From Sphingomonas hankookensis (GTDB lineage Bacteria; Pseudomonadota; Alphaproteobacteria; Sphingomonadales; Sphingomonadaceae), in NCBI RefSeq assembly GCF_028551275.1, contig NZ_CP117025.1, positions 3,278,001 through 3,342,000 on the forward strand: 64,000 bases of DNA, read 5' to 3'. The translations under genes were made by a program, and so were the position numbers. Below are positions 56,600 through 64,000 of the stretch, in pieces. Position 1 is the stretch's first letter; each line of letters opens with the position of its first letter. Below the pieces are notes generated by a model, which was not told where the DNA came from, did not search any database, and saw only the letters and a list, made by a program, of their open reading frames with translations.

Positions 56600-57259
56600 A
56601 TGGCCTTTTGCACCCGATGCGGCAGCGCGCTGCCGACCGACGCCCGCTTCTGCCCCGCGTGCGGCAACGCCGTCGATGCCCCGACCCCCGCCGCGCCGCC
56701 GGTCGATACCGGACCGACCGACGCAGCCCCGCGCCCCGCGCCGTCCGCGAAGCCCCGACCGGCCGAGAAACGATCGAGCGGCGCGGGCGGGCTGATCCTG
56801 CCGGTCATCATCGCGGTCGCACTGTTCGTGATCCTGGTCATGCTCTGGTCGCAGCGCGACGGCCCCCGACCGATCGCCGCCCCCGACCGCAACGAAGCGC
56901 CGGCAACCGCCGCGAAGGAGTCCGCCACCGCCCCCGAACCCAGCGCGAGCGCCGCAGCCGACGCCACCCGCACCACCATCGCCAGCCTCGACGCGGCGTT
57001 TCGCGACGATCCGCAGGGCGCGCGGACCCGCTATCCCGGCCCGATCACCGCCACCGGCACCGTCGCCGGGGTCACGCCGGGCAGCAACGCCGCCCTCTCG
57101 CTCGAAGGGCGCACCCCGTTCAACTTCGTCGTTGCGAACGTCGCCGATGCCACGCAGATCGCGAACCTCGCCAAGGGCAGCCGCGTCACGCTCACCTGCG
57201 ACCGGGTGACGGCGCTCGCCGGCACGACGATCCTGCAGGGCTGTGCGCTCGGCGAATGA
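56600..57259 (+). CDS. Zinc-ribbon membrane protein with OB-fold (tRNA_anti-like) domain
   Basis: 219 residues. An N-terminal zinc ribbon (FCTRCGSALPTDARFCPACG, two CxxC pairs), a proline/alanine-rich linker, one transmembrane helix (GLILPVIIAVALFVILVMLW, about 64-84) and a C-terminal OB-like domain (about 125-218, ASLDAAFRDDPQGARTRYPG, ITATGTVAGVTPG, VTLTCDRV) typical of the tRNA_anti-like group. Such proteins are predicted envelope or stress proteins with unknown ligand. The stop overlaps the cytochrome start by 4 bp. Confidence 0.75.
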   Translation: MAFCTRCGSALPTDARFCPACGNAVDAPTPAAPPVDTGPTDAAPRPAPSAKPRPAEKRSSGAGGLILPVIIAVALFVILVMLWSQRDGPRPIAAPDRNEAPATAAKESATAPEPSASAAADATRTTIASLDAAFRDDPQGARTRYPGPITATGTVAGVTPGSNAALSLEGRTPFNFVVANVADATQIANLAKGSRVTLTCDRVTALAGTTILQGCALGE

Positions 57260-58908
57260 CGCCGCGGCGGATCACCCTGCTCCGCCGGTTCGCGGTGGCG
57301 GGCGCGGCATTGGTGCTGGGCGGCACGCTGCTCTGGGCGGGCGCACGCCCGGTCGGCGACGCGGTCACCCGCCCGGCTGTCGCCCCGTCCGCCGGCATGG
57401 TCGCTCAGGGCGCCGCAGCCTTCGAAGGCGCGGCGTTCGGCGGCATCAGCGTGGCGGCACTGGAGCGCAGCGCGCTGCCATGGCGGCTGGTCGCCGCCGC
57501 CCTCGTCCTCGACGAACAGGCGCGCGATCCCGCCACGCGGATCGAGCCGGCGACGCTGTCGCGCATCCTCGCCCGTTTCGGCTTCCTCACCGCCGCGCAG
57601 GTCGTCAACCGCCCGCCCGGCGTCGGCATGCGGCCGGGCGGCATGCTGCTGGGCTTCACCGCCGGCGACGTCGCCCCCGTCGGCGGCAGCATCGTGCGGG
57701 TCGCCAATCTCGGCTGCGCGGCCTGCCATGCCGGCATCGCTTATCGCGCCGATGGCACCCCCGATCCGTCGCGCGCGGTGCTCGGCATGCCCAACACCTC
57801 GCTCGATCTCGAAGCCTATACGATGGCGGTGTTCGTCGCACTGCGCCGCCATGTCGACAGCGACCGGCTGCTCCCGACCGCCGCCGCGCTGTTTCCCGAC
57901 ATGGGGGCGCGCGAACGGCTGAGCCTGCGTCTGCTGGTGCGGCCGCTGGTCCGGCAGCGGCTGGCCGATTTGCGCGATGCCGAACGCCCCCTGCCCTTTC
58001 CCAACGGCACGCCCGGCAGCACCAACGGCGTCGCGGCGCTCAAGGCCGCGCTGAACGTGCCGCTGATCGGCGGCGGACGCGGCGATGTCGGCACGGTATC
58101 AATCCCGGATCTTGGCGCCCGGCTATGGCGTACCCGGCTGCTGGCCGATGGTGCCTACGGCATCCCCGGGGAGGCGACGCGCGCGACCACCCGAGACGAC
58201 CTGACTCCGGCGCATCGCACGGCACTGGCGCGGATCACGACCTTCTTCACCGTACCCAGCATGGGCGTGCATCCCGACGCGGCGATCGACGCATTGGCGG
58301 ATGCCGATGCGGTCCTCGCCTTCCTCGCGGCCTATCGCCCCGCCCCCTTCCCCGGCGCGGTCGACCTGCCCCGCGCGCGAACGGGCGCCGTGCTCTACGC
58401 TCGGCACTGCGCCGCCTGTCACGGCGACTATCGGCTGGAGGGTCGCCGCGCACGGCTGGTTCGGTTTCCCAACTGGATCGGCGATGTCGGCACCGACCCG
58501 CTGCGCGCCACCGCGTTCGACAGGGCGCTGGCCATGGCGGTCGGGAGCAGCGCCTATGCTGGTCGGATCGATGTCACGACCGGATCGGGCTATGCCGCGC
58601 CGCCGCTGGCCGGGCTGTGGGCGTCGGCGCCCTATCTCCACAACGGATCGGTGCCGACACTCGACACGCTGCTGACGCCCGCCCGGCGGCCGATCCGGTT
58701 TCAGGTCGGCGGCCATGCGCTCGATATCGAACGGGTCGGCCTGCGCCTGACGCCGGATGGCGCCTATCCCGCCGGCTATCGCCCCTTTGCCCGCCCCGCC
58801 TGGCTCGACGCCCGCCAGCCCGGACGCGGCAATGGCGGCCACAGCTTCGGCACCGACCTGTCCGACACCGACAAACAGGCGCTGACCGCCTTTCTGAAAC
58901 TTTTGTAA
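57256..58908 (+). CDS. Di-haem c-type cytochrome
   Basis: 550 residues, anchored or exported by an N-terminal hydrophobic segment (RFAVAGAALVLGGTLLWAGA). Two haem-binding CxxCH motifs are visible, CAACH in NLGCAACHAGIAY near residue 158 and CAACH in ARHCAACHGDYRL near 395. The arrangement and PYLHNGSVPTLDTLL near the C-terminus recall di-haem peroxidase or thiosulfate/alcohol-dehydrogenase-type cytochromes and the RoxA-like group, but the first CxxCH is unusually far in and no peroxidase signature is certain. ATG 57256 overlaps the previous stop. It converges on the nitroreductase-like gene. Confidence 0.8.
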   Translation: MTPRRITLLRRFAVAGAALVLGGTLLWAGARPVGDAVTRPAVAPSAGMVAQGAAAFEGAAFGGISVAALERSALPWRLVAAALVLDEQARDPATRIEPATLSRILARFGFLTAAQVVNRPPGVGMRPGGMLLGFTAGDVAPVGGSIVRVANLGCAACHAGIAYRADGTPDPSRAVLGMPNTSLDLEAYTMAVFVALRRHVDSDRLLPTAAALFPDMGARERLSLRLLVRPLVRQRLADLRDAERPLPFPNGTPGSTNGVAALKAALNVPLIGGGRGDVGTVSIPDLGARLWRTRLLADGAYGIPGEATRATTRDDLTPAHRTALARITTFFTVPSMGVHPDAAIDALADADAVLAFLAAYRPAPFPGAVDLPRARTGAVLYARHCAACHGDYRLEGRRARLVRFPNWIGDVGTDPLRATAFDRALAMAVGSSAYAGRIDVTTGSGYAAPPLAGLWASAPYLHNGSVPTLDTLLTPARRPIRFQVGGHALDIERVGLRLTPDGAYPAGYRPFARPAWLDARQPGRGNGGHSFGTDLSDTDKQALTAFLKLL

Positions 58909-58937: not shown

Positions 58938-59915
58938 CTAAACCAGCAGCTCGCCGATCGGGCGGCGGGCACGCACCGAGACCGATCCGGGCGGCCGACG
59001 CCCGATGCGAAACGCGCTGACGATGCGGCGATCTTCCCCTAGGCCAGCCCGCCGCGCCATATCCGCCGCGGCATCCGGGTCATCGGCCAGCGCCGCCAGT
59101 ACCGCCGCGCCGAACCCGGCCGCCTCGAGCCGCAACCACAGCCGGTAGAAGGCCGCGCCGCTGTCGAACGGCGCCTCGTCGCGCGGCCGGTGGAACAGCA
59201 CCACGCCCGCCGCCTTCGCGATCTTCGCCCCCTCGGCCAGCAGCGGCCGGGCGAGGCCCAGACGGTCGAGCAGGCGGAATGCCGGACCCAGCACGATCCG
59301 CGCGCCCTGCGCCTCAATCCCGCCCATCGCCATCGCCCGCGCGTTCAGTCCGTCTAAATCCCAGCGGGGATGGCGACGGCGCAACCGCATCCATCCCAGG
59401 AGCTCCGCGCGAAACGCATCGTCGCGCAAAAAGTAATAGCTTGCCGCATCATAGCGGGTGGCGACCTGTCGCAGCACCGCCGCATCGGTCAGTATCGCCG
59501 CGTCGTCGGCCACCAGAGCCGCCGCCATCGCCCGGTCCATCAACGTCGGCGCTGCAAACGCCCCCCGCCACGACCGGCGCGCTTCGACGACATCGCCGAG
59601 CGGCTCGACCGTCCCACCCACCACAAGCTGCCACGCCGCGACCGCGCGCAGATCCTGCTCGTCCGCTGGGCGCGCGACCTCCCGCAGCGCCAGTCCGCGC
59701 CGCGCCGCCGCCAGTCGCATCCCTTCCGCCGCAGCCCCCAGGCTGATCACCGCATCGTTCGCATGGGGGTCACCGACCGACAGGCGGCAACGCAGATCCT
59801 CGAACAGTGCGACGCCGTCGTCACCGGTCAGCCGCCAGCGGGCGGGCTGAACATTATGGACGCTGGGGGCAAGCGCCGCTTCGGCGACCAGCGCGATGCG
59901 ATCGATGCCGCTCAT
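58938..59915 (-). CDS. Nitroreductase-like FMN protein (Acg type)
   Basis: 325 residues. The N-terminal block ALAPSVHNVQPARWRL resembles the FMN/phosphate-binding start of nitroreductases (HNxQPW) and is closest in style to Acg-family proteins; ARRSWRGAF and the C-terminal LWLRLEAAGFGAAVLAAL fit the same fold. The usual Trp after QP is Ala here, and overall conservation is loose, so activity is uncertain. Last gene of a five-gene operon; ATG 59915 overlaps the GNAT stop by 4 bp. Confidence 0.72.
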   Translation of the reverse strand: MSGIDRIALVAEAALAPSVHNVQPARWRLTGDDGVALFEDLRCRLSVGDPHANDAVISLGAAAEGMRLAAARRGLALREVARPADEQDLRAVAAWQLVVGGTVEPLGDVVEARRSWRGAFAAPTLMDRAMAAALVADDAAILTDAAVLRQVATRYDAASYYFLRDDAFRAELLGWMRLRRRHPRWDLDGLNARAMAMGGIEAQGARIVLGPAFRLLDRLGLARPLLAEGAKIAKAAGVVLFHRPRDEAPFDSGAAFYRLWLRLEAAGFGAAVLAALADDPDAAADMARRAGLGEDRRIVSAFRIGRRPPGSVSVRARRPIGELLV

Positions 59916-61009
59916 GCCAGCGTCTTTCGAAACAGATGGAGCCGATGCAGCGGCTGTGCGCCGATCCTGTCCATCTGGCGGAGGCTGGCCGCGTTGACGT
60001 CGGCGATCCAGGTGATGCCGAGCCGGCGGTAGCCCGCCTCGCGCAGCGCCGTCACCGTGCGCGCCAGCATTCCGCCCATCACGCCCTGTCCCTGCATCGC
60101 CTGTAGCACCGAATAGAAGATGATGACCGCCCGCCGTCGTCGCAGGCGATAGCGCAGGTAATGAAACGGCGTCGTCCACCCGATCCGTGACCCGGTGGCG
60201 GCCAGCAGCCCGTTCAGGTCGGGAATGCAGACCACCGTCCCCACCGGCTGCCCGTCATGCAGCAGGACCGACGACAGGCGCGGGTCGAGAATCGACATCA
60301 TCTCCCCCGCCTGGAACCGGAACTCCTCCGCCGTCAGCGGCACGAACATCGGATTGTCGGCGAACCCGTCGTTCAGCACGATCCGCGCCTCCTCCATCCG
60401 CTCGGCAAAGCTCGCCTTCTCGATCGGCGCGAAGCGAAAGCCGTCGTCGCCGTCCAGCACCCGCAACCCGTCGATCCGCGCCGACTCCAGATCCAGTTCG
60501 AACGTCCGCATCGGAAAGAACGGCGCGAACCCGTTGACCGTCAGCAGGCGCGGGATATGCGGCGCGCCGACCACCATGTCGGTATAGGCCCGCGCGCCGA
60601 AGCCATCGGTCATCACGCCGCATTGCTGCATCGCGGTCAGGTTGAAATTGCCGACCAGCTCGGTGGGCCCATGCTCCCGTGCAAACCCCTCGGCCGCGCC
60701 CAGCAGGGCGGCGGCAGCCTCGTCATCGTCGGCGCAATCGAAGAATCCGAACTGGGCGCGGCGCGTGCCGTGCGCGGCATTCGACTGGCGATGGACATGC
60801 GCGACGATCCGCCCGACCGGACGTTCGCCCCGATTTGCCGTCCAGAAGGCATAAGGATTGCCGGCCGACCACAGGGGGTTGGCGCGCGGGTCGAGCATCC
60901 GCCGCACATCGCCGCGCATCGGCGACACATAGCCGGTATCGCGGGAATAGGCATGGAACGGCGCGGCAAAGAACGCCTCCTCGTCGCCTTGGCGCAGCTC
61001 GACGCTCAT
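59912..61009 (-). CDS. GNAT-fold N-acyltransferase
   Basis: 365 residues. The C-terminal third has a GNAT acyl-CoA loop, MQGQGVMGGMLARTVTALREAGYRRLGITWI, and ends NAASLRQMDRIGAQPLHRLHLFRKTL, a typical GNAT finish. The N-terminal part (ANPYAFWTANRGERPVGRIVAH, FNLTAMQQCGVMTDGF) suggests a second GNAT-like half, as in large acyltransferases. Acceptor unknown. Overlaps its neighbours by 4 bp on both sides. Confidence 0.8.
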   Translation of the reverse strand: MSVELRQGDEEAFFAAPFHAYSRDTGYVSPMRGDVRRMLDPRANPLWSAGNPYAFWTANRGERPVGRIVAHVHRQSNAAHGTRRAQFGFFDCADDDEAAAALLGAAEGFAREHGPTELVGNFNLTAMQQCGVMTDGFGARAYTDMVVGAPHIPRLLTVNGFAPFFPMRTFELDLESARIDGLRVLDGDDGFRFAPIEKASFAERMEEARIVLNDGFADNPMFVPLTAEEFRFQAGEMMSILDPRLSSVLLHDGQPVGTVVCIPDLNGLLAATGSRIGWTTPFHYLRYRLRRRRAVIIFYSVLQAMQGQGVMGGMLARTVTALREAGYRRLGITWIADVNAASLRQMDRIGAQPLHRLHLFRKTLA

Positions 61010-62136
61010 GCCGCCGCCTCGATCAACCGCGCCGCGACCGCGATCTCGTCGTCCAGCTCGGCCCCGGCCAGCCCGCCCGCCGCGATCGCCAGCCATCGCG
61101 GCGGTGTCCGCGACAGGCGGATCAGATGCGTCGCCTGCGTCGCCTGCAACAGGTCGCGTCCGGCATCGCCCGCCTCGTCGTCCAGATCGGCGTCGATGAC
61201 GGGGTGACACAGCAACCGTTCGATACTGTCCGGCGGATAGGCGGTCAGCATGTCGCCATCGATCACCTGTCCGCTTTCGAGCAGGGGATGCGCCGACAGG
61301 ATCATGTCCCGGCGCATCATCGGCGCGCGGGCCAGCGCGGCGATCAGCCCCGATCCGCGCGTGTCTCGACCGCTCCGCCGCTCGACCAGCAACAGCAATG
61401 CCACCACCGCCCATCCGGCCGCCGCGATCCGCACCGCCGCTGCCGCGTCGATCGCCGGCCACGACAGCCATGCCGCCAGCACGATCAGGCCGCAGGCACC
61501 GCTCGCGACCGCCAGATCGGCGATCAGTCCCGATGGCCGTCCCCGGCCATCGGCCAGGCGCGACGATCCCAGCACGATCACCAGCACGGCGATGGCGCCG
61601 CCGCGCACTGGCAGTTCGGGGAACAGGGCATGGAAATCGCTGAGCGCCAGCGGAATGGTCAGCAACAGCGCAAGCAGGAAGGTATCGAGCGTCCGCCGCT
61701 CGGCCGGCTTCAGTTCGGCGCGTTCGTGCGCCAGCAACAGGATCGTCAGCGCCAGCATGACCGATTGATAAACGGCCAGCGCCACGATCGCCGCCTCGCT
61801 CCACACCACGCCCAGCGTCAATGCGACCAGGGTGAACGCCACGCCGCCGCCCAGCCCGAGGAGCTTCACCCAGCGCTGCGCATGACGGCGGCACAACTCC
61901 TCCGCCAGGCGTAGGCCGGCGAGCGGCAGCCATGCCGCGACGATCATCAGCGCGACGACGAACGGCACCGCATTGCTGACCGAACCGATTAGCCGTAGCG
62001 CCAGCAGCAGCACGGTCAGCCCGTACACACGACGCAATGCCCTGGCGACCGGAGAGCGTGACGCAGCCTCGCCGGCGGCGACGCGGGCGATCGCCGCCGC
62101 GCCCAGCGCGATCACGGTGACCAGCGGGTCGATCAC
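61006..62136 (-). CDS. Polytopic membrane protein of unknown function
   Basis: 376 residues with about nine hydrophobic segments between residues 5 and 280, then a soluble C-terminal tail of about 95 residues containing RAPMMRRDMILSAHPLLESGQVIDGDML. I do not recognise the family. GTG 62136 is chosen because it overlaps the ThiF stop by 4 bp (GTGA) as elsewhere in this operon. The frame is open for much longer upstream, but that part is the antisense-like shadow of the ThiF gene. Confidence 0.7.
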   Translation of the reverse strand: MIDPLVTVIALGAAAIARVAAGEAASRSPVARALRRVYGLTVLLLALRLIGSVSNAVPFVVALMIVAAWLPLAGLRLAEELCRRHAQRWVKLLGLGGGVAFTLVALTLGVVWSEAAIVALAVYQSVMLALTILLLAHERAELKPAERRTLDTFLLALLLTIPLALSDFHALFPELPVRGGAIAVLVIVLGSSRLADGRGRPSGLIADLAVASGACGLIVLAAWLSWPAIDAAAAVRIAAAGWAVVALLLLVERRSGRDTRGSGLIAALARAPMMRRDMILSAHPLLESGQVIDGDMLTAYPPDSIERLLCHPVIDADLDDEAGDAGRDLLQATQATHLIRLSRTPPRWLAIAAGGLAGAELDDEIAVAARLIEAAA

Positions 62137-63005
62137 GCCATCATCCGCCGCAGGAACCGCCGGACGACGACGCCGCGGACGGCGGCGACCGGTGCCGCGC
62201 GCGGGCGCTCGACCCGCATCCGGTGCGGGTTGAAGAAATAACCGCGATGGTCGGTGCCGCTGGGTCGCCGCAGGATGACGCGGATCGCCTCTTCGGCCAT
62301 CATCGTGCCCGCCATCGTCACCATCGTGGCAAAGGAAAAGCGCGACCGCTTGCCTGCGGCGACCTCGGCCGCAATGTCCAGGTCGACATGCGCGTGGCTG
62401 CTGCTGTGGATCAGCACATATTCGATCTCGCGCTGGAGACAGAGGGTGCGCATGTCGGCCGTCACCTCGGTCCATGGAATGCCGACCGTCGGATAGCGTA
62501 GCCGCACTTCGGGTCGCGGGTCCTCGGGGCGAACGACCGTCACCGACGGCAGCGGCGAGGCATAGGCGTCGATGACGGTACGGCCATGCGCCTGCGCCCG
62601 GCGGTACAGGTGCACGCCTGCCGCCGCATCGTCCATGCCGTTGACGATCACGTCGCTCTCCGGGATCAGCCGGTCCAACGCGTCGGTCCATTCCGCGCCC
62701 AGCAGCTCGATCTCGACTTCCGGGTTGATCCGCAGCGCGCCGGCCCGCGCCGCCGTCGCCTTGTCCTCGCCGATGGTGTCCAGCGTGGCGAACAGCTGGC
62801 GGTTCAGGTTCGACAGCTCGAAACGGTCGATATCCGCGATGGCAAAGCGGCCGACGCCGGCGCGCACCAGTGCCATGAACGCGGCCCCGCCCATGCCGCC
62901 GACCCCCGGAATCAATATCTTAGCCGCCCGCAACCGCGCCTGCTCGTCCGCCGTGACGAACCCGCGGTTGCGTACCGTCATCCCATCATAGCAAAACCCG
63001 CTCAT
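62133..63005 (-). CDS. ThiF/E1-like adenylyltransferase
   Basis: 290 residues. The ATP-binding loop GVGGMGGAAFMALVRAGVG, the DIDRFELSNLNRQ block and the later NGMDDAAAG are hallmarks of the ThiF/MoeB/E1 superfamily, which adenylates the C-terminus of ubiquitin-like proteins or of other carboxylates. The C-terminal zinc-binding CxxC pairs of ThiF/MoeB are not present, and no ThiS/MoaD-like gene is nearby. ATG 63005 overlaps the upstream stop by 4 bp; ATG 62981 is the alternative. Confidence 0.85.
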   Translation of the reverse strand: MSGFCYDGMTVRNRGFVTADEQARLRAAKILIPGVGGMGGAAFMALVRAGVGRFAIADIDRFELSNLNRQLFATLDTIGEDKATAARAGALRINPEVEIELLGAEWTDALDRLIPESDVIVNGMDDAAAGVHLYRRAQAHGRTVIDAYASPLPSVTVVRPEDPRPEVRLRYPTVGIPWTEVTADMRTLCLQREIEYVLIHSSSHAHVDLDIAAEVAAGKRSRFSFATMVTMAGTMMAEEAIRVILRRPSGTDHRGYFFNPHRMRVERPRAAPVAAVRGVVVRRFLRRMMA

Positions 63006-63946
63006 CCCCCCCTCAATCTTCCCAACGGTTGATCCGCAGCCAACCACTGAACCAGCGGCGCGACGATGGCCTGGATCGTCAGGATGATCGCCTGCACGCC
63101 CAGTTGCGGAATGGCGCTGCGAGGAACGCTTTTCGCCAGAAACCGCCGCGCGGTCGACAGGTCGATACGACCGATCTGCAGCACGTCGTCGCCTCGGACA
63201 TAGTCCAGCGTTTCGGCGCAGAACCGGTTATAGCGTTCATCGCGATGCTTGGCGGCGACGGCGAAGCTCTTCTTCAGATTGTCGGACCCGCCGGTATAGG
63301 CATTGGTAATGACCTGCGTTGCCGGGTCGAACCCTGCGTCTTCGCCGACGCCGAACGCCGCGCGCTCCTTCCGCATGATCTGATAGGCAAGGTGCTGGTG
63401 GGCGAAGCTCGGCCGGGTGCCCGCCTGTGCGGGATACACGTCGTCGAACGTCTGCGCGACCATGCCGACGACGGCGGGCACCTGTGTCACGCTGCTGATC
63501 CATAGCGGGCGCAGGCCACGCCGGACGAAGAGCGCAAAGCAGGTCAGGCCATAGAGAATCCATGACAGCCCCCCACTCCGCTCGGCCGGATCGACCATGA
63601 CAAGTCCAAGATGCAGCACGTCGTCCGGCAGGCCGCCACGCTGCACCCTGAGCAACGGCATGGCGTTGAACGCAATGGGTCGGCTGTCGCCGGCCCGCCG
63701 GACCAAGGTGACCACGCTGCGGTCCCATGCGGCCCCGTCAGGCGCGAACAACCCGTAATCGAGCTGCCGCCCGTCCAGACAGCTAGCCACAACGTCGCGG
63801 CAGGCGGCCTGCAGTGCTGCCAGATCAGTCGGCGACAGGATGCTAGTGGGGCGTTCGGCGATTTCGACGCGGTACTGGCGCCCGGCAGGAAAGCGTAGGA
63901 GCAGGTATTTCCCGGAGAATGCGCTGAAGATTGCCGTTGGCCGCAT
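63002..63946 (-). CDS. GNAT-like hypothetical protein, first gene of the E1/nitroreductase operon
   Basis: 314 residues. No signal peptide. The middle part LGLVMVDPAERSGGLSWILYGLTCFALFVRRGL resembles the beta4-alpha3 acyl-CoA loop of GNAT enzymes (VxPxxRxxGxS), though the match is loose. A hydrophobic stretch near the C-terminus (LGVQAIILTIQAIVAPLVQWL) could contact the membrane. ATG 63946 has GAGGAA five bases upstream. The next four genes follow with 4-bp overlaps. Confidence 0.65.
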   Translation of the reverse strand: MRPTAIFSAFSGKYLLLRFPAGRQYRVEIAERPTSILSPTDLAALQAACRDVVASCLDGRQLDYGLFAPDGAAWDRSVVTLVRRAGDSRPIAFNAMPLLRVQRGGLPDDVLHLGLVMVDPAERSGGLSWILYGLTCFALFVRRGLRPLWISSVTQVPAVVGMVAQTFDDVYPAQAGTRPSFAHQHLAYQIMRKERAAFGVGEDAGFDPATQVITNAYTGGSDNLKKSFAVAAKHRDERYNRFCAETLDYVRGDDVLQIGRIDLSTARRFLAKSVPRSAIPQLGVQAIILTIQAIVAPLVQWLAADQPLGRLRGG

Positions 63947-64000
63947 GCGTTCCTCGTCGGGACGTCGGTGGCAATGCGTATCACGACGCGCACGACTGGC

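Follow-up and report, generated by a model that had tools for sequence, protein, structure and literature searches.

Within a 64,000-nucleotide stretch of the 3.95-Mb genome of Sphingomonas hankookensis (contig NZ_CP117025.1 of assembly GCF_028551275.1, positions 3278001-3342000; hereafter the window) lies a minus-strand run of five open reading frames (ORFs) which, together with a convergent neighbour for a RoxA-like di-heme c-type protein, would constitute one biosynthetic cassette. In such a cassette an N-acyl amino acid would be activated or cyclised, desaturated, acylated a second time, handled at the membrane and oxidised in the periplasm. Taken as a whole chain, this is a reading for which we consider belief and doubt to be evenly balanced, and its product is probably a fatty amino-acid-type compound. 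The closest named relatives of the window proteins are from Sphingomonas. The five ORFs are open and are joined by four 4-bp overlaps which read, in gene order, ATGA, GTGA, ATGA and ATGA; the coordinates and junction letters thereby confirm the gene layout described in an earlier annotation made from the letters alone (the sequence-only reading).

That the five genes form a unit, as that annotation had also proposed, is borne out by a survey of gene neighbourhoods. A ThiF alignment was searched against 84,980 species, each represented by a single genome, giving 67 loci outside the window, the gene content of which was established by phmmer with the window proteins; since two exact peptide patterns were used in this species scan, only close relatives were recovered. 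All five genes are present, in identical order and strand, in 62 of these 67 external loci. Among the other five, L060, L061 and L063 have no gene 4, and L095 and L101 are interrupted by contig ends. The four junctions permit, in turn, a 4-bp overlap with an in-frame start codon in 65/66, 60/66, 59/63 and 48/63 external cases. The hosts are Sphingomonadales, Caulobacterales/Hyphomonadaceae and Rhizobiales (Rhizobium, Bosea, Bradyrhizobium, Hyphomicrobium and others), with the addition of one Halomonas-labelled metagenome-assembled genome (MAG) and two Bacteriovoracaceae MAGs, two phyla in all. The weakest phmmer matches are those of gene 3, which reach 31 and 23 bits in the Bacteriovoracaceae pair. 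Chance cannot account for a five-gene order kept across two phyla amid differing flanks. Two side observations belong here: in L041, L044, L072, L093 and L096, all of them among the 62, one cassette gene is split across two frames, through decay or assembly errors, and in L062, the Halomonas-labelled MAG, the cassette with its RoxA-like gene nests within the alphaproteobacterial cassettes, by transfer or misbinning.

The cassette is rare and patchy. An orthologue is found in one of 36 other genomes of the same genus (84% identity) and, among 289 sampled genomes of the class, a threshold of E 1e-60 is passed by the window's own protein alone. In 10 of 72,556 plasmid records the ThiF protein is matched over 80% of its length or more, with copies on rhizobial megaplasmids. 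On the Rhizobium, Ensifer and Shinella plasmids the annotations run hypothetical, ThiF, hypothetical, GNAT, hypothetical; the sizes fit, and the ends are close or overlapping. Searches there matched genes 2 and 4 and, in Rhizobium sp. WL3, gene 1 as well, genes 3 and 5 being putative. On this evidence the cassette seems to move as a unit. In the open-licence PMC library, judged by titles and the beginnings of abstracts, no paper was recognisable as an account of these genes together.

The RoxA-like gene, which was missed by the sequence-only reading, belongs to the cassette. When flanking ORFs were clustered across the loci (most such clusters are without annotation, and five ORFs of two loci were then scanned with Pfam, two of them having no family), this was the one gene found to keep its place beside the cassette across orders. 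In the window (gene 6, 57256-58908, plus strand, 550 aa) it is convergent, with its stop 29 bp from gene 5, and its match to Pfam PF21419 (2.2e-19) is the single one in the genome. It stands beside gene 5 in the window and in 33 of the 65 external loci in which both gene 1 and gene 5 are present, convergently in 31 of them and co-directionally, right after gene 5, in both Bacteriovoracaceae; the gene next to the cassette on the Rhizobium sp. WL3 plasmid is likewise a PF21419 match. The two c-type haem sites, the MauG motif and the distal histidine of the PF21419 di-heme oxygenases are all in place. Indeed, the CxxCH sites at 154-158 and 385-389, F331 and H529 are found in 34/34 of the RoxA-like proteins, F331 and H529 being the likely counterparts of F317 and H641 of RoxA, and H462 of the MauG motif, which reads PYLHNGSVP in the window, is found in 29/34. 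RoxA and PA2077, to which this family is tied, are reported to attack C=C bonds with O2, and PA2077 to do so within the periplasm (PMC6311187, PMC4496055); the window protein is put forward here as a candidate periplasmic oxygenase.

Gene 2 (62133-63005, minus strand, 290 aa) encodes an E1/ThiF-like adenylating enzyme (ThiF, PF00899, 2.3e-39), proposed here as an ATP-dependent cyclase or activator. The adenylation residues are kept, in that GxGGxGG, D60, N66/N68/R69/Q70, K82 and D125 are invariant in 14 aligned sequences. The zinc cysteines of MoeB and ThiF, the absence of which had been noted in the sequence-only reading, are indeed lacking; a CxxC motif occurs in none of 65 cassette E1 proteins (0/65) and somewhere in frame in 21/21 MoeB-like proteins compared. 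As a side observation, C189, which lies outside any CxxC, is invariant in the 14 close relatives aligned but gives way to other residues in the more divergent cassettes, an observation that argues against a catalytic thioester of general occurrence at this site. In a tree built from 17 of the 65 cassette proteins, eight uncharacterised ThiF-nitroreductase fusions, one FeeM triple fusion and E. coli MoeB, ThiF and TcdA, with L118 (a long branch), L017 and 10 of the 21 MoeB-like rows left out, the cassette E1 groups with the ThiF-nitroreductase fusions (support 96/88).

Gene 4 (59912-61009, minus strand, 365 aa) is a GNAT acyltransferase (PF00583, 1e-7) of the bacterial ceramide synthase (YghO/CerS) family, an assignment to which the sequence-only reading had not come. 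It is 25.5% identical to E. coli YghO across 99% of gene 4, and a profile of the gene 4 family matches E. coli BL21 YghO at 153.7 bits over profile positions 5-369 of 371, a full-length relationship. The neighbourhood of yghO in BL21 contains fatty acyl-AMP ligase, epimerase, acyl carrier protein and spt genes, and YghO and CC_1154 are listed among the acyltransferases of dihydroceramide synthesis in PMC9386255. The same profile finds, at 133.4 bits and nearly full length, a CerS-like paralogue elsewhere in the window genome, preceded by two LptF/LptG-family genes and one for a fatty-acid hydroxylase (L109:5741-10123); in Caulobacter the LptF2 and LptG2 genes are reported with numbers beside that of cerS (PMC11324152). 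Because the genome has this separate paralogue, gene 4 is, as judged by homology, a second and cassette-specific member of the CerS family.

Gene 5 (58938-59915, minus strand, 325 aa) is a flavin oxidase of the nitroreductase superfamily (Pfam nitroreductase, 4.4e-5), proposed as a desaturase. The window protein matches the Acg/Rv3131-type model NF047509 at 3.5e-37 with 128.6 bits, short of the cut-off of 199, against 40.6 bits for the Rv1355c family. Over six cassette proteins (the window and five other lineages) the corresponding ranges are 128.6-146.8 and 37.7-72.7 bits, whereas four fusions from relatives within the order score 73-103 bits with NF047509, lower than with the Rv1355c family, for which the E1 domain is counted too. 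A FeeM-ThiF-nitroreductase triple fusion also reaches 128.5 bits, so NF047509 separates poorly, and no protein scanned attains 199. Gene 5 leans towards Acg/Rv3131, and no further than that. The sequence-only reading had likened the E1 and flavin proteins to the fused mycobacterial Rv1355c (its MoeY), which is TrzS, reported to form an oxazolone by ATP-dependent cyclisation of N-acyl tryptophan and O2-dependent desaturation (PMC12856293). The parallel holds for the E1 protein; gene 5 leans to Acg/Rv3131 more than to the oxidase domain of Rv1355c.

The two remaining genes are less readily placed. Gene 1 (63002-63946, minus strand, 314 aa) is GNAT-fold acyltransferase-like, with a hydrophobic helix at its C-terminus, and is proposed as an N-acyl amino acid synthase. 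Its GNAT-like character, claimed earlier, finds no Pfam family in the window protein and weak Acetyltransf_1 matches in 10/40 gene 1 sequences (best 0.0055), yet the predicted structure has the GNAT fold, with a match that is generic for GNAT. FeeM (2G0B) is not among the 50 matches listed for this structure, a result which excludes nothing. Gene 3 (61006-62136, minus strand, 376 aa, GTG start) encodes a polytopic membrane protein. Hydropathy, together with the charges of the loops in 53 sequences, predicts nine helices in an N-out/C-in arrangement with a cytoplasmic C-terminal domain (AlphaFold predicted local distance difference test score 90.2). No Pfam family matches the window protein, and among 38 relatives nothing consistent appears, the best being a single NnrS match (0.0078). 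Sequence searches of the PDB gave no match for genes 1, 4 and 5 and two for gene 3 (E 0.11-0.16), and comparison with PHROGs returned nothing useful.

Fused counterparts of the E1 and flavin proteins also exist. Loci L110-L117 come from relatives within the order and carry fused ThiF-nitroreductase genes and genes for TIGR03694 exosortase-associated acyltransferases; they are uncharacterised OxzAB-like clusters of Sphingomonadales kin. The TIGR03694 gene is present at all eight fusion loci, adjacent in six and separated by one long ORF in two (L114, L117), and by analogy the layout is much like that of OxzAB/TrzAS, as described in PMC12856293 and PMC10404671. From the reading frames we would guess that L110-L117 lie in PEP-CTERM surroundings. 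A triple fusion is seen on a Nitratidesulfovibrio vulgaris plasmid (L123:5053-8022), where a natural FeeM-ThiF-nitroreductase protein of 989 aa lies amid PEP-CTERM genes. A search for the PRK14852 family in 190 genomes of the class gave one match, ThiF-only and below the cut-off.

Neighbours of the cassette other than the RoxA-like gene also point towards lipids. Directly upstream of gene 1, on the same strand, 10 of the 32 loci without a RoxA-like gene (8 Bosea, L069 and L071) have a gene for a protein of ~1135 aa that combines MFS, acyltransferase and AMP-binding domains; this gene overlaps gene 1 by 1 bp in L068 (L068:3632-7039). A 61% identical protein, annotated as acyl-[ACP]--phospholipid O-acyltransferase, is encoded downstream of gene 5 on the Ensifer and Shinella plasmids, convergent to the cassette (L120:13220-16618, L121:13347-16745). 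The remaining 57 external loci and the flanks of the window cassette yielded no such acyltransferase-type gene. Its domain content marks the ~1135-aa neighbour as a putative additional lipid gene.

From the observed gene order, homologies, folds, motifs and linkage we infer a chemistry that would begin with gene 1, which would place a fatty acyl chain on the amino group of an amino acid. The E1-like protein, by analogy with the OxzB/TyzB/TrzS group, would adenylate the carboxylate with adenosine triphosphate (ATP), leading to cyclisation to an oxazolone or to the handing on of an activated acyl group, and the gene 5 protein would desaturate the alpha-beta bond with flavin mononucleotide and O2. 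Gene 4 would then add a second acyl group or acylate a related long-chain amine, and gene 3 might anchor the enzymes at the membrane or move the product across it. Finally, the exported RoxA-like protein, after the manner of RoxA and PA2077, would oxygenate or cleave a C=C bond of the product in the periplasm. This pathway is proposed because of the five-gene order, the grouping of the E1 in the tree, the layout of the fusion loci and the existence of a natural FeeM-ThiF-nitroreductase fusion, and likewise because of the match of gene 4 to YghO, the linkage of the RoxA-like gene and the ~1135-aa lipid neighbour. The sequence-only reading had envisaged an amide- or ester-forming modification of a small molecule or lipid; its unit, its non-zinc E1, its analogy with Rv1355c and its combination of acyl transfer, activation and redox are retained here, and it is in the sixth gene, the ceramide-synthase kinship and the lean of gene 5 to Acg/Rv3131 over the Rv1355c oxidase domain that it fell short.

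Several results weigh against this pathway. Neither the TIGR03694 acyltransferases (hhalign probability 0.2) nor the FeeM triple fusion shows any relationship to gene 1 in sequence. Gene 4 is absent from the cassettes of L060, L061 and L063, and their genomes gave no match to it either, the same search being positive in four control genomes. For gene 5, the FDO-B (Acg/Rv3131) group is, according to Grigg and colleagues (PMC10404671), not tied to oxazolone synthesis on current data; if the Acg/Rv3131 lean is right, the pairing with ThiF is unusual and a simple transfer of the oxazolone function is weakened. Moreover, a glutamine invariant in the eight fusions, presumably Gln651 of TrzS, is replaced in 20 of 20 aligned cassette proteins. 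No RoxA-like gene stands beside 32 of the 65 loci, namely L049 and 31 from Rhizobiales (8 Bosea, 21 Bradyrhizobium, L069 and L071); 25 genomes of those 31 were searched for PF21419, giving 19 with a match and 16 above the cut-off, and the ten unlinked matches that were compared, all from Bradyrhizobium, are distant (tblastn at most 89 bits, against phmmer scores of 216-915 bits for the linked ones). Lastly, long branches meet in the E1 tree, as the program warned, and a grouping of the cassette with MoeB/ThiF is not rejected (approximately unbiased (AU) test, p 0.098). The separation from MoeB and ThiF on which the earlier annotation depended is hence upheld by the best tree and blunted by these last two points.

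It is this AU value, with the presence of MoeB, ThiF, MccB and PaaA among the PDB sequence matches of gene 2, that lends something to the view of the E1 as part of a sulphur-carrier, cofactor or peptide pathway. The complete lack of CxxC, the best tree, the absence of any carrier-protein or peptide gene within the overlapping unit and the conservation of acyltransferases with the E1 all argue the other way, such that we hold this view to be most improbable. A role as a molybdopterin or thiamine E1 was accordingly rejected as the likely one, on CxxC and the best tree, with the AU value for the MoeB/ThiF grouping noted. Neither ThiS nor MoaD appears in the annotation of neighbouring genes on three megaplasmids, no genome-wide search having been made. 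Gene 3 invites a different thought, in that a Foldseek search with its predicted structure finds a seven-helix receptor topology; the cassette might then be a signalling system, gene 3 sensing a small signal made by genes 1, 2, 4 and 5. The E-values are weak, none being below 0.0078, helical bundles often score alike and the flanking genes that can be identified concern lipid or redox functions, most flanking clusters having no annotation. A sensor is thus improbable to our minds.

More weight, albeit still that of an unlikely alternative, attaches to the view that the E1 forms no ring at all. It would instead activate a carboxylate and couple it to an amine or alcohol. The product would then be a membrane amino acid or amino lipid bearing two acyl groups, the chains of which would be modified by the Acg-like and RoxA-like proteins. 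There are, after all, two acyltransferases, one of the ceramide-synthase family, the gene 5 protein leans to Acg/Rv3131, and the cassette has a gene of the phospholipid-acyltransferase type as a neighbour in 10 external loci and on three plasmids. On the other side, the ThiF and nitroreductase pairs that have been characterised yield oxazolones, as reported in PMC10404671 and PMC12856293.

If the proposed pathway of activation, desaturation and re-acylation is followed to its furthest extent, the six genes would be a mobile route, shared by Alphaproteobacteria and Bacteriovoracaceae, to undescribed lipids: an N-acyl dehydro- or oxazolone amino acid would receive a second acyl chain, be transported by the nine-helix protein and be oxygenated at a C=C bond in the periplasm. 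In this scheme, which is speculative and rather unlikely, the second chain may come from the ceramide-synthase cousin, and the oxygenated double bond may be one made by the pathway itself. If true, an Acg/Rv3131-type flavin oxidase would for the first time be seen to work naturally alongside a ThiF-type activator, which would give that orphan group of oxidases a reaction that can be tested; the Acg-like flavoprotein leans to a group of Mycobacterium tuberculosis proteins whose reaction is described as open in PMC10404671. The formation of oxazolones by ThiF and nitroreductase pairs has been shown only recently, and the cassette is a larger and strictly ordered version of such a pair, in hosts and with three protein types that are not named with that chemistry in the accessible sources. 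Furthermore, the linkage of a RoxA-like subfamily suggests that di-heme proteins of this kind can be tailoring enzymes. The cassette is also small and self-contained.

With respect to the surroundings, an rRNA operon ends (23S-5S-tRNA-Met) ~140 bp upstream of gene 1 on the same strand (L004:12085-15000, past window position 64000); in 24 other loci scanned, some with little upstream DNA, no tRNA lies within 1 kb upstream, and a scan upstream of gene 1 found no promoter or terminator. At 56600-57259 on the plus strand a gene for a protein with a zinc ribbon and a tRNA_anti-like domain shares a 4-bp overlap (ATGA) with the RoxA-like gene. One Bradyrhizobium locus has a gene for a fatty acid desaturase upstream (L078:3414-4589), and the flank clusters suggest that it is common to 13 Bradyrhizobium loci, perhaps as plain genus synteny.

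Comparison with known systems places the cassette close to several of them. The kinship of gene 4 with the bacterial ceramide synthases (CC_1154, YghO, Swit_3908) extends over almost the whole protein; from their setting the cassette differs in having no spt gene and in residing in a genome with a separate CerS-like paralogue. The RoxA-like protein shares with the rubber oxygenase RoxA and with the fatty-acid di-heme proteins PA2077/PA2078 two CxxCH sites, PYLHNGSVP and conserved F331 and H529, whereas its significant sequence match to RoxA (4b2n) is limited to ~37 residues and its subfamily is tied to the cassette. In the N-acyl dehydrotyrosine clusters of Thalassotalea, Massilia and Stieleria, NAS, ThiF and nitroreductase genes are likewise near neighbours, which in Thalassotalea and Massilia overlap or are parted by small gaps, but the accessible part of PMC12479983 mentions no membrane, ceramide-synthase-type or RoxA-like gene. 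Nearest in content are OxzAB, TyzABC and TrzAS, TyzABC being reported to carry out like chemistry on tyrosine with separate proteins (PMC10404671). Filing the cassette under these clusters was set aside, the cyclase, acyltransferase and oxidase comparisons having decided neither way. The shared ground is a ThiF-like enzyme, a nitroreductase-superfamily oxidase and a GNAT-fold acyltransferase within one unit, together with the grouping of the cassette E1 with the uncharacterised ThiF-nitroreductase fusions; the differences are that gene 1 is not alignable with the TIGR03694/FeeM acyltransferases, that gene 5 leans to Acg/Rv3131 and that the cassette adds three proteins of its own, the membrane protein, the ceramide-synthase-type acyltransferase and the RoxA-like protein.

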